The notes beneath the pieces were generated by a model. The model ran no database searches and had not been told where the DNA came from. It saw only the letters and a list, made by a program, of their open reading frames with translations. From the NCBI RefSeq assembly GCF_024300645.1, contig NZ_CP101291.1, forward strand, positions 1,984,001 through 2,048,000: DNA of 64,000 nucleotides. The letters run 5' to 3'. This document shows, piece after piece, positions 28,729 to 41,922 of the stretch (position 1 is its first letter; each line of letters begins with the position of its first letter). The translations under genes were made by a program, and so were the position numbers. The stretch is from Alteromonas sp. LMIT006. Its GTDB lineage: Bacteria > Pseudomonadota > Gammaproteobacteria > Enterobacterales > Alteromonadaceae.

Positions 28729-29802
<1,074 letters not shown>

Positions 29803-29849
29803 CTAGCACACTGTAAAATCAAGGAAAATTAGAATAACAAAGCAAAAAA

Positions 29850-29876
29850 AAACGCCGAAGATCCGCTTCGACGTTT
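29850..29876 (-). terminator. intrinsic terminator after rplT
   Basis: An 11-bp stem with one mismatch (arms 29850-29860 and 29866-29876, 5-nt loop) lies 30 bp after the rplT stop. Read on the minus strand it is followed by an unbroken run of T residues. It separates rplT from pheS and could act as a full terminator or as an attenuator for pheST. Confidence 0.8.
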
Positions 29877-29905
29877 TTCCAAAAACTTAAGCTTAGTTGT
29901 TTATC

Positions 29906-30262
29906 TTATGCTAACGCACCTTTAGCCGCATTGACTAAGGCAGTGAAAGCGTTCTTATCGTGTACTGCGATGTCAGCAAGGATCTTACGATCGATTTCGA
30001 CAGACGCTTTTTTCAGACCGTTGATGAAACGGCTGTACGATAAACCATTTTGACGCGACGCAGCGTTGATACGTGCAATCCATAATTGACGGAATTGACG
30101 CTTGCGCTGACGACGGTCACGATAAGCATATTGACCAGCTTTTGTGACAGCTTGGACCGCTACGCGGTAAACACGTGAACGTGCACCGTAATAACCTTTG
30201 GCCTGCTTTAATACTTTTTTATGACGAGCGCGTGCAATAGTACCGCGTTTTACTCTAGCCAT
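29906..30262 (-). CDS. rplT: 50S ribosomal protein L20
   Basis: The 118-residue assembly protein L20 of the large subunit. It has the very basic N-terminal extension [15 protein letters not shown] that threads into 23S rRNA and the globular C-terminal part with [11 protein letters not shown]. In E. coli L20 also represses rpmI-rplT translation by binding the mRNA leader. It lies 14 bp after rpmI and is followed by a clear intrinsic terminator. Confidence 0.97.
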
Positions 30263-30276
30263 GATTCAGTCTCCTC

Positions 30277-30474
30277 TTAAACGTACGGTAACATACGTTG
30301 GATAAGTGCTGTATCCGCAGTATGAACTAATTTTTTGCCACGTAAGTGGCGTTTACGCTTAGAGCTCTTTTTGGTCAAAATGTGACGCAAGTGAGACTGT
30401 TTACTTTTGAAACGACCAGACGCTGTCTTGCGAAAACGCTTGGCTGCTCCACTGTTGGATTTCATTTTAGGCAT
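30277..30474 (-). CDS. rpmI: 50S ribosomal protein L35
   Basis: The 65-residue ribosomal protein L35 with the usual [14 protein letters not shown] opening and [12 protein letters not shown] basic core. The 106 bp separating it from infC carry a GGAG ribosome binding site and short complementary AACTG/CAGTT arms. In E. coli this leader holds the L20-binding translational operator, but I cannot fold the pseudoknot with confidence here. Confidence 0.97.
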
Positions 30475-30580
30475 TGCTAAAACTCCGCATTGTTAAATAC
30501 CAGTCCGTTGCAGATGAACTGAGGTTAATGTTTGCAGTTCGGTGTTAATACTGTGCAGGTACTAAACTTGTAAACCGAGA

Positions 30581-38886: not shown

Positions 38887-39957
38887 TTATTTGACAGCAA
38901 ATTCAAAATCTTTGATTTCATCAACGATTCGCCCCGTTTTAATCGCATCAAAAAAATACTCAGCTAGACGATCTGATTCACTTAAAATAGTTTGCCAATA
39001 TGGGATCCTCTGTTCAGGAGTCATCTTTGCAAAATCATTGCGATCTGAGATTTTGCCATACGGCAAGGACGCAACAAACTCTCGACTCGGCACTAGCATA
39101 ACCACATTATCGTATGAAGCAGCATGGGGAATTCTATGCGTAAGGCGCTTATCAAACCAACCGGTGATAGGACGTGGATAAAAGTGCGGATATAACGTTA
39201 AACCAGCGTTTTTTGGATGCTCAGAGAATTGCAAATCAAAGTGGTAATCTGTGATACCACCATCGCGATACATCCCTTGTCCTGCCCCAGGAATATCTGA
39301 GATACCACTCATCACCATAGGTATAGAGCCACTTGCCAGCAACGCAGGCTCAAGGTTGTCTTCAGTTAATGGTACAAATTGATTACCTAAACGGTAAGGA
39401 TCAATGATGTTCAATCGCTGAGTGCCAAATGTAACACGATCAAAATATCGAGTTAACCGAGTTCTTGAGCGCATATTAGCAAACGCGCTTTGGATTAAAC
39501 CAAACATTTGAAGCTTGCTGTTTTCACTCGCAACCAAGCCTTTACAGCGCGCAACGATAAAGTGAGCTTTGAATCTTGAATTGGTTAAAATTTCTTGAGT
39601 CCCCGTCTCACCCAGCATTTTTGCCAAAATATCTGCAGCACTTTGCGATATTTCGGCCGGAGAAGGCTTGTCAGAGTAAACGGTATTTGAGTAAAAATGC
39701 GCTAAACGATCAATGGCTGCTCGCGAGTCTCGTTGACACATACAGGCGGCACGAAAAGCCCCTGCTGAAGTTCCGATTACGTCGATGGATTGATTGCAAG
39801 TGGCGAAAAATTCACTGACTAAAATCCGATCCAAACCTGCTAAGACAAACCATTTTGGTCCACCTGATGCGCCTAAGATAGTGTCAAACAATTCTGCATT
39901 GAAGCCATTTTCTCTAATTTTTTGTTTGGCATAGGGACCTGAGTATATATCAAGCAA
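38887..39957 (-). CDS. patatin-like phospholipase family protein
   Basis: A 356-residue patatin-fold serine hydrolase, likely acting on phospholipids or lysophospholipids. The oxyanion-hole motif GASGGPKWF is at about 29-37, the nucleophile elbow GTSAG has Ser64, and the catalytic Asp lies in YRDGGITDYHF. There is no signal peptide. The start is a TTG with AGGAAG 5 nt upstream, chosen because the conserved N-terminus begins right after it and no ATG fits. It is transcribed towards tRNA-Val, with 65 bp between. Confidence 0.82.
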   Translation of the reverse strand: MLDIYSGPYAKQKIRENGFNAELFDTILGASGGPKWFVLAGLDRILVSEFFATCNQSIDVIGTSAGAFRAACMCQRDSRAAIDRLAHFYSNTVYSDKPSPAEISQSAADILAKMLGETGTQEILTNSRFKAHFIVARCKGLVASENSKLQMFGLIQSAFANMRSRTRLTRYFDRVTFGTQRLNIIDPYRLGNQFVPLTEDNLEPALLASGSIPMVMSGISDIPGAGQGMYRDGGITDYHFDLQFSEHPKNAGLTLYPHFYPRPITGWFDKRLTHRIPHAASYDNVVMLVPSREFVASLPYGKISDRNDFAKMTPEQRIPYWQTILSESDRLAEYFFDAIKTGRIVDEIKDFEFAVK

Positions 39958-39960
39958 GAC

Positions 39961-40433
39961 TTCTTCCTTTTTTGGTTTGATTGCATGGTTTAAAGGTGTA
40001 GGCGTATGCTTACAATTTGTGCATATCTAAAAATTTAATCCACACCTTACATACCTCACAAATACATTCTAAGCTGGCTTATCTAATATATGTTTGAAAT
40101 TGATTTAGTTCACTTTGAAAAAAAATACCCATCCTATTGATTCTTTGTACCCCTTAATTTAATTGGCCTTTGAGGTATTTTAAAAAAAAACGAAATAAAA
40201 TCAGTTTGTTTTTTATACAATCTAATGACAAACACGAGATAATGTACAACGAAAGTATAAATCCAAACAATATTCACAAAGTTATCCACAGATCTAGTGG
40301 ATAATTATCAACAACGAGAGTAAGACATATCTTACAAAAACAAACGACCTGATTACCCAAGAATTATTAATGAATTTCATATGATAATTGATTACACTTG
40401 CATGACATAATAATCAATACAAATTTTCCTATT
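39961..40433 (+). other. 476-bp AT-rich non-coding region with DnaA-box-like sites
   Basis: This is the largest gap in the window. I find no convincing gene or RNA in it. It is strongly AT-rich, with runs of A/T near 40140-40200. It contains three DnaA-box-like 9-mers in 32 bp at 40282-40313 and inverted 7-mers TTGATTA/TAATCAA at 40388-40394 and 40411-40417, which overlap a possible TTGATT-17-TAATCA promoter for the next gene. Confidence 0.6.
40282..40313. promoter_or_regulatory. cluster of three DnaA-box-like 9-mers
   Basis: TTATCCACA (40282-40290, plus strand) is a perfect DnaA box. An inverted TTATCCACT (40296-40304, minus strand) and a TTATCAACA (40305-40313, plus strand) each differ at one position. 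A Dam site GATC lies between the first two (40291-40294). Known chromosomal origins of this group sit by mnmG/rsmG, so this is more likely a DnaA-titration or DnaA-regulated site. Confidence 0.45.
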
Positions 40434-40793
40434 ATGATAACAGTCTTCGGTATAAAGAACTGCGATACAGTAAAAAAATCTTTAAAATGGTTAGAGGCCA
40501 ACAACATCAGTTATGAGTTTTATGATTATAAAAAACTTCCTCCGAAGCGCGAATGGCTGATTGAACAAATTGAACAACACGGCCTTGATACGATAGTAAA
40601 TAAACGCGGCACGACTTATCGCAAACTTGATGACTCAGTCAAAGCATCACTCGATGTCGATACGGCTCCTAACCTGTTAGTTGAAAATCCATCGATGATA
40701 AAACGCCCGATCCTCTGTCATCAAAACAAACCGAAAGCAAAAAGTTTAGTCGGTTTTAAATCTGAACAATATGAGCAATTTTTTAATGAGTAA
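40434..40793 (+). CDS. ArsC/Spx family reductase (YffB-like)
   Basis: A small thioredoxin-fold protein of 119 residues beginning [16 protein letters not shown]. The Cys in GIKNCDT occupies the ArsC/Spx active-site position, and a C-terminal SMIKRPI supplies the conserved R-P motif. The subgroup next to dapE (YffB type) is of unclear function, perhaps a glutathione-dependent thiol reductase rather than an arsenate reductase. The ATG at 40434 is favoured over one 36 bp upstream because the fold begins with it. It overlaps dapE by 8 bp. Confidence 0.85.
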
Positions 40794-41922
40794 ATCTCCT
40801 GTCATCACACTGTGTCAAGCCCTTATCCAACAACCTTCAGTCACGCCAGATGATGCCAATTGCCAACCGATGATGGCTGAGCGGCTTAAGCCGATTGGCT
40901 TTAATATCGAAACCATGCAATTTCATGACACAACGAATATGTGGGCAAGAAGGGGCACAACTGGCCCTGTCTTTTGTTTTGCTGGACATACCGATGTAGT
41001 CCCAACGGGACCAGAATCACAATGGAGTCATCCTCCATTTGACGCACACATCGAAGATGGCATGATTTGGGGAAGAGGTGCAGCTGATATGAAAGGTTCT
41101 CTGGCGGCAATGGTCGTTGCCACTGAAAGATTCATAGCCGATTACCCGAATCACAAAGGCTCTATTGCCTACTTAATTACCTCAGATGAAGAAGGGCCTT
41201 TTATCAACGGGACAACTAAGGTAATTGATACATTAGAGGCACGTAATGAGAAAATTGACTATTGCATTGTCGGTGAACCCTCAAGCACATCTCATGTTGG
41301 TGATGTGGTTAAGTATGGTCGCCGTGGCTCCTTAACGGGTGACTTAACCATCATTGGTAAGCAAGGTCATGTAGCTTACCCTCATCTCGCAGAAAATCCT
41401 ATTCATGCGGTTGCACCTGCATTAGCAGAATTGGCGAATACCGTTTGGGATGAAGGTAATGCGGCATTTCCACCTACGAGCTTTCAAGTTTCAAACATGA
41501 ATGCCGGTACAGGTGCTGGAAACGTGGTTCCTGGGCGTGCAACCTTGTGTTTTAATTTTCGATTCTGCACAGAACAAACCTTTGCTTCATTAATTGAACG
41601 AACGTTGGCTATATTAGATAAGCATAATCTTAAATATGAGATTGACTGGACCTATAATGGACAGCCTTTTTTAACTGAAACGGGTACTTTGGTTGATGCA
41701 ACGGTATCAGCTATTGAGTTAGTTACCGGAAAAGCACCTGAACTTTCTACGGCAGGTGGAACTTCTGACGGACGTTTTATTGCTCCCACAGGCGCTCAAG
41801 TTGTTGAATTAGGACCAATTAATGCCACAATTCATCAAATAGATGAGCGTGTTAGTTGTGCTGATTTAGAGCTGCTGACGGATATGTATTATCAAATACT
41901 GAAACATTGTTTGGGTCAATAA
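40786..41922 (+). CDS. dapE: succinyl-diaminopimelate desuccinylase
   Basis: Zinc metallopeptidase-fold enzyme (M20) that releases L,L-diaminopimelate for lysine and peptidoglycan synthesis. It has [11 protein letters not shown] (metal His), [15 protein letters not shown] (bridging Asp), [12 protein letters not shown] with the catalytic Glu, and the C-terminal GTSDGRFIA. The ATG at 40786 gives 378 residues and the common MSKSPVI opening; an ATG 15 bp upstream is possible. The reductase-dapE pair is a classic gene order. Confidence 0.95.

Follow-up and report, generated by a model that had tools for sequence, protein, structure and literature searches.

The 476-bp gap between a patatin-like phospholipase gene and a yffB-type gene of Alteromonas sp. 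LMIT006 holds a tight group of DnaA-box-like 9-mers, and the question raised by this locus is what kind of site these boxes form. The gap lies in a stretch of 64,000 nucleotides (the window; positions are those of the window unless a genome is named), which covers 1,984,001–2,048,000 of a genome present as one contig of 2,533,120 bp (G000). The first-pass annotation of this DNA had offered three possibilities, namely titration of DnaA as at datA, regulation of the downstream gene, or a replication-related element. A further kind of DnaA-binding site is the DARS, which converts ADP-DnaA back to ATP-DnaA and is known in detail from E. coli. The locus is composed as follows.

38887–39957, minus strand: patatin-like phospholipase gene, left neighbour, divergent (PF01734, E 2.2e-7)
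39958–40433, no strand: A+T-rich 476-bp gap between divergent genes, containing the core (from the sequence and the reading of open reading frames)
40270–40278, plus strand: DnaA box III, ATATTCACA, differing from the R-box TTWTNCACA in one letter, in the place and orientation of box III of E. coli DARS1, TAATACACA
40275–40304, plus strand: the core pattern used in searches, CACA-N3-TTATCCACA-N6-GTGGATAA, without mismatches and in a single copy in the window
40282–40290, plus strand: DnaA box II, a perfect TTATCCACA, 3 bp past box III
40296–40304, minus strand: DnaA box I, inverted, TTATCCACT, 5 bp past box II and equal to box I of E. coli DARS1
40305–40313, plus strand: TTATCAACA, the third box of the first-pass annotation, probably outside the element; shared with L004, a relative of 95% identity
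40434–40793, plus strand: yffB-type gene of the ArsC family, right neighbour (PF03960, E 1.3e-19; ATG start read at 40434)
40771–41922, plus strand: dapE, succinyl-diaminopimelate desuccinylase (PF01546/PF07687; 60% identity to E. coli DapE)

Three 9-mers had been described, TTATCCACA at 40282–40290 (+), TTATCCACT at 40296–40304 (−) and TTATCAACA at 40305–40313 (+), in an A+T-rich gap of 476 bp (39958–40433) around a GATC. All of these were found, the GATC at 40291 being the sole one in 39958–40436, where G+C is 0.286. The judgement that such a cluster is unusual was also borne out, its occurrence being far beyond chance: the window has a single match to the composite core when up to 3 mismatches are allowed, and 100 dinucleotide-preserving shuffles have none. 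The membership of the cluster, however, was only partly right. The boxes at 40282–40290 and 40296–40304 belong to it, box ATATTCACA at 40270–40278 had been missed, and the copy at 40305–40313 is absent in L005, L006, L008, L009, L010, L014 and L016; as part of the unit the latter was rejected, being unconserved beyond the 95%-identical relative. With the gap as query, 8 of the 9 relatives searched in the same genus retained the stretch from CACA to the inverted box, and the ninth (G003) gave no match. The conserved unit is the 35 bp from 40270 to 40304, that is, box III, 3 bp, box II, 5 bp and inverted box I. The gap had been taken for the largest of the window; one longer stretch between open reading frames of at least 130 aa (29752–30580) contains frames of 118 and 65 aa. 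As a separate observation, near-DnaA boxes with at most 1 mismatch number 41 across the window (1–64000) against 18.6 expected, a count reached in 0 of 100 shuffles. Rfam and tRNA scans of the window returned two tRNAs alone, neither of them at the core.

In the K-12 sequence, DARS1 of E. coli (between bioD and uvrB) reads TAATACACA-TGG-TTATCCACA-GGAAT-AGTGGATAA and DARS2 (near mutH) reads TTCTTCACA-ACT-CTATCCACA-GAAAA-GGTGAATAA. The consulted part of PMC5742627 describes DARS cores as boxes I–III with equal spacing at DARS1 and DARS2 and with box I opposed to boxes II and III, and gives as their prominent feature the head-to-head contact of DnaA molecules on boxes I and II. The window core has three boxes with box I opposed to II and III, spacers of 3 bp (III–II) and 5 bp (II–I), and a kept position that is intergenic, the last property being read in the window alone. 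Boxes I and II are the same as those of DARS1 in 18 of 18 letters and box III in 6 of 9, the spacers are likewise 3 and 5 bp, and both sites are intergenic; with DARS2 the box order and spacers are common, boxes I and II of the window core being closer to consensus. The loci differ. The window core does not adjoin uvrB but lies between the patatin gene and yffB–dapE, at 47.2% of the chromosome from the origin against 32.9% for DARS1, and the same genome has a separate uvrB-linked core at G000:1517085. It is also away from mutH, on the terminus side, whereas E. coli DARS2 is found at mutH–rppH, 20.6% from the origin; the best match in the mutH–rppH gap of the own genome (91 bp) has 8 mismatches. 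DARS2 carries IHF and Fis sites at set distances; IHF- and Fis-like consensus matches in the window gap occur at shuffle frequency. From box layout and gene context, the window cluster is with good confidence a DARS-type site, linked to dapE on the terminus side of the chromosome and separate from the two E. coli loci, and among the earlier proposals a predicted replication-related DnaA-binding element is the one that the DARS-type layout supports.

A genome-wide count and a comparison with relatives, both suggested in the first-pass annotation, went against two of the refuting conditions named there, since the core is conserved and clusters like it are few. The own genome has exactly two cores at up to 3 mismatches, with none for a reversed control pattern, among the matches listed. 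The second core (L058) lies at 1,517,085 on the minus strand, 1.7 kb from uvrB (0.4 kb in the case of E. coli DARS1) and 32.8% of the chromosome from oriC compared with 32.9% in E. coli, and is the counterpart of DARS1. The own mutH is located at 1,016,396, and the 91-bp gap between it and rppH has no core. At up to 2 mismatches, at least one core was found in 191 of 196 genomes of the family, in 182 of the 183 good-quality ones and in 52 of 52 sampled genera, and in 233 of 295 genomes of the order sample, with no hit of the reversed control in the family and order scans, all among the matches listed. Raising the threshold to 3 mismatches gave a core in 59 of 59 family genomes and two reversed-control hits, again among the matches listed.

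Cores were assigned to loci by tblastn with E. coli UvrB, MutH and RppH and with the patatin, YffB and DapE proteins of the window. The tally covers 58 genomes of the 59-genome family sample (G076 left out); 52 have at least one placed core, and six have no placeable core locus (G021, G023, G045, G053, G058 and G065). Cores at both uvrB and dapE were found in 35 of the 52 genomes, at uvrB, dapE and mutH in 3, at dapE alone in 3, at uvrB alone in 8, at uvrB and mutH in 1, and at uvrB and the patatin gene only in 2, so that 41 of the 52 have a dapE-linked core and 49 a uvrB-linked one. Among the genomes with a dapE-linked core alone, G015 has a single core genome-wide (up to 3 mismatches, among the matches listed), G017 has a second core in a stretch too short to place, and G050 has a second core without uvrB within 5 kb. 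Among the 41 dapE-linked cores, nine have 3 mismatches (G012, G016, G018, G020, G057, G059, G068, G070 and G080). Neither a dapE-linked nor a patatin-linked core was seen in 9 of the 52 genomes; three of these, G019, G042 and G049, lack the dapE-linked core, since no unplaced core remains in them at up to 3 mismatches among the matches listed, and the DapE-anchored stretches of G019 and G042 contain no core. In a separate collection scan, the gene order patatin, core, yffB–dapE was seen in records of Glaciecola sp. and Opacimonas viscosa (8 of 25 stretches), and uvrB-linked cores in named records including Aliidiomarina, Colwellia, Aestuariibacter and Aliiglaciecola. By these names the family, one of marine bacteria, is probably Alteromonadaceae taken broadly.

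Around DapE in other families, no core at up to 5 mismatches was found in 25 of 25 genomes, in loci that span 1.5 kb past dapE and about 1.1 kb past yffB (yffB being unfound in 3 of 25), so that the 5 of 41 family cores lying more than 1.1 kb from yffB would escape such a scan. The 10-kb dapE region of E. coli K-12 likewise has no core at up to 5 mismatches, and a single 6-mismatch match in the dapE stretch of G243 is at chance level. Of the 30 mutH–rppH gaps scanned in the family, 2 hold a core, those of G041 and G044; the sample is non-random and consists of the 30 best MutH scorers plus the own genome, from which 30 of 31 loci were scanned (L244 is without rppH). Further mutH-linked cores were found in G066, G042 and G046 from fetched loci and coordinates. 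Of the 21 other families from which core-bearing loci were taken, 14 have a mutH- or rppH-linked core, in genomes chosen for having a core. A tree of UvrB alone (63 rows, by a quick method) leaves 26 of 60 inner branches open, and in it the family does not form a single group, with three rows from other families placed inside it. The five genomes with mutH-linked cores fall in two groups of this tree; across the family rows this label has to change 4 times, and both of the large family groups include genomes with dapE-linked cores. The core distribution, together with this poorly resolved tree, suggests that the family gained the dapE-linked site at its base or close to it and that most lineages later lost the mutH-linked one.

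Several cores were noted at other places. In three genomes, from three other families of the order, a core with 1–2 mismatches adjoins pta (L173 8052–8081, L184 8016–8045 and L190 8063–8092). The core at L171 8009–8038 has an altered box II (TAATCCACA), a form that recurs in several genomes of family f9; it lies away from uvrB, mutH and dapE and close to a gene whose match to UmpB (an antiporter subunit) is below the cut-off. Exact cores occur at L099 5192–5221, L107 78–107 (near a holB-like gene), L114 2631–2660 and L106 6486–6515; the titles of these records are Candidatus Odyssella, Candidatus Paracaedibacteraceae, Holosporaceae and Alphaproteobacteria bacterium. DARS-type cores may, to judge from such matches, be present outside the gammaproteobacteria. 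Among betaproteobacterial records, one of Alcaligenaceae (L116 4685–5168) has three zero-mismatch cores within about 480 bp, adjoining malate synthase G, and one of Undibacterium has a core adjoining xseA (L110 2854–2883).

The placement of the window core between divergent genes, with yffB about 130 bp away, and the location of the core on the yffB strand in 41 of 41 dapE-linked loci would suit a DnaA-dependent operator for cell-cycle control of yffB–dapE or of the patatin gene, as the first-pass annotation had considered for the downstream gene. Distances among the relatives disfavour it: the core is 74–2955 bp from yffB (median 689, 41 loci) and 144–4360 bp from the patatin gene where this was seen; 19 of the 41 loci, a number of them short stretches, showed no patatin gene. 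Promoter-like sites in the 476-bp gap show no excess over shuffles, and the same core adjoins uvrB, mutH and pta elsewhere. An operator is thus an unlikely explanation; a free-standing element inherited in place is indicated by the one orientation, the varying distance to yffB and the patatin gene that is near or unseen, and is a better fit than an operator bound to a single promoter. As an observation apart, the palindrome GTAAGACATATCTTAC at 40320–40335, 15 bp past the core, is possibly an operator for an adjoining gene; L004, L006, L008, L014 and L016 have imperfect palindromes like it at almost this distance, and L005, L009 and L010 have none.

Within the core, box II of 33 aligned dapE-linked loci is TTATCCACA in 27, ATATCCACA in 5 and ATACCCACA in 1, in a set most of which was found by a pattern containing box II. 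Box III is weak and variable, ending in CACA or AACA, and conserved blocks beyond the core are weak in this class. A scan of spacers from 0–7 by 0–10 bp over 60 loci anchored on MutH or DapE gave 13 hits, 11 with the 5-bp II–I spacer, the pair (3,5) being the commonest with 5 of 13; one site may count at several spacers here, and the DapE set includes a genome with a known core.

The same layout bears on the view of the cluster as a datA-like site that titrates DnaA or serves the hydrolysis of DnaA-ATP. DnaA is bound by closely set boxes, and every site of this kind takes up a share of the protein; in E. coli much of the titration is due to DARS1, DARS2 and datA, according to a section heading of PMC12371093. 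Both datA and the window core are DnaA-box clusters outside oriC. However, minimal datA consists of boxes 2, 3 and 7 and one IHF site, is IHF-dependent and has the opposite effect on DnaA (PMC5742627, in part), whereas the window core has the DARS-type layout with the inverted I/II pair and fixed spacers, and its neighbours are the patatin gene and yffB–dapE rather than queG and glyVXY. A terminus-side, low-copy position would also fit titration poorly. The datA-like reading of the first-pass annotation is consequently not the best fit, and we consider it unlikely.

The near-perfect palindrome of the I/II pair is the usual form of a dimer operator and could point to another palindrome-reading regulator, or the boxes might be a chance cluster. 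Against both stand the absence of the pattern from the window shuffles, the CACA-bearing fixed-spacer core in all 52 family genera (good-quality genomes; no control hit, among the matches listed) and the dapE locus kept in 41 of 52 placed genomes, which makes these explanations very improbable. A second replication start or the remnant of a plasmid-type origin, to which DnaA boxes and A+T-rich flanks might point, is hardly credible, as the likely oriC is the box cluster at 686.0–686.15 kb between mnmG and mioC and the GC skew computed in the window has no minimum at the core, which lies about 30 kb past the cumulative maximum.

The likely oriC, with which the window core has the TTATCCACA boxes in common, is near the own dnaA at 692,988. 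At 47.2% of the chromosome from the origin, the core lies towards the terminus; as a search for dif gave 0 matches genome-wide at up to 3 mismatches and 0 in the window, the exact terminus is not fixed and is placed only by GC skew from few stretches. The dapE-linked core is 39.6–47.2% of the chromosome from dnaA or oriC in 11 of 11 family genomes measured, and the uvrB-linked core 30.9–45.1% in the 10 of these with a placement; the sample consists of single-contig genomes with a core, dnaA and length (G091 and other single-contig genomes are left out), and in G119 it is yffB, not dapE, that matched near the core. A DnaA-family match of 253 aa at G000:1949750–1950463 is presumably hda, and an ATP/ADP-DnaA switch is plausible in this genome because of it. 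This probable hda is 74 kb from the dapE-linked core, compared with about 10–47 kb in G082, G119, G054 and G131 and about 135–712 kb in G011, G014, G015, G020, G169 and G183.

As a DARS-type site, the window core would be expected to act as follows. ADP-DnaA would bind all three boxes, two AAA+ domains would be brought head to head on the inverted pair I/II so that ADP is released, and apo-DnaA would leave the core and rebind ATP, giving more ATP-DnaA for the next initiation at oriC; we infer the binding, the ADP release and the effect on initiation alike. Transcription through DARS sites harms their function according to the part of PMC5010248 consulted, and the divergent gap would shelter the window core from read-through. 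The family mostly keeps the uvrB-linked DARS1 and would have added a terminus-side dapE-linked site, and most of the lineages sampled seem to lack the mutH-linked DARS2.

Whether the added site also took over the work of the missing one is a more speculative matter. The DARS2 role may have moved from mid-arm mutH to terminus-side dapE, a site that would have the lowest copy number and be duplicated just before termination, so that late replication sets the recharging of DnaA and ties the next initiation to completion of the previous round; we regard this as a tentative and rather doubtful proposal. In the accessible part of PMC5010248, the relative position of DARS sites is kept among E. coli strains and matters for the cell cycle and fitness, DARS1 shows little position preference, many DARS2 positions restored wild-type origin numbers, and long competition favoured insertions at the native DARS2 place; this work calls for caution towards a moved DARS2 role.

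No report of a dapE-linked DARS was found in the literature searched, most subscription papers lying outside it. A third, Fis-dependent DARS, as yet unidentified, has been supposed in E. coli (PMC4245941, in part), and sequences homologous to DARS2 have been compared in species related to E. coli, including Vibrio cholerae and Shewanella denitrificans (PMC8682772, in part). DARS are a known kind of site, of which the terminus-side core at dapE is very probably a new member. The rule of a 3-bp and a 5-bp spacer is a simple sequence rule by which DARS cores can be found in genomes. The family, with 52 genera sampled and with uvrB-linked, dapE-linked and a few mutH-linked cores, is a ready-made comparison for the siting of DARS; and if the DARS2 role has indeed moved, the DnaA cycle would have been re-wired in nature in a way that puts the importance of DARS position to the test.
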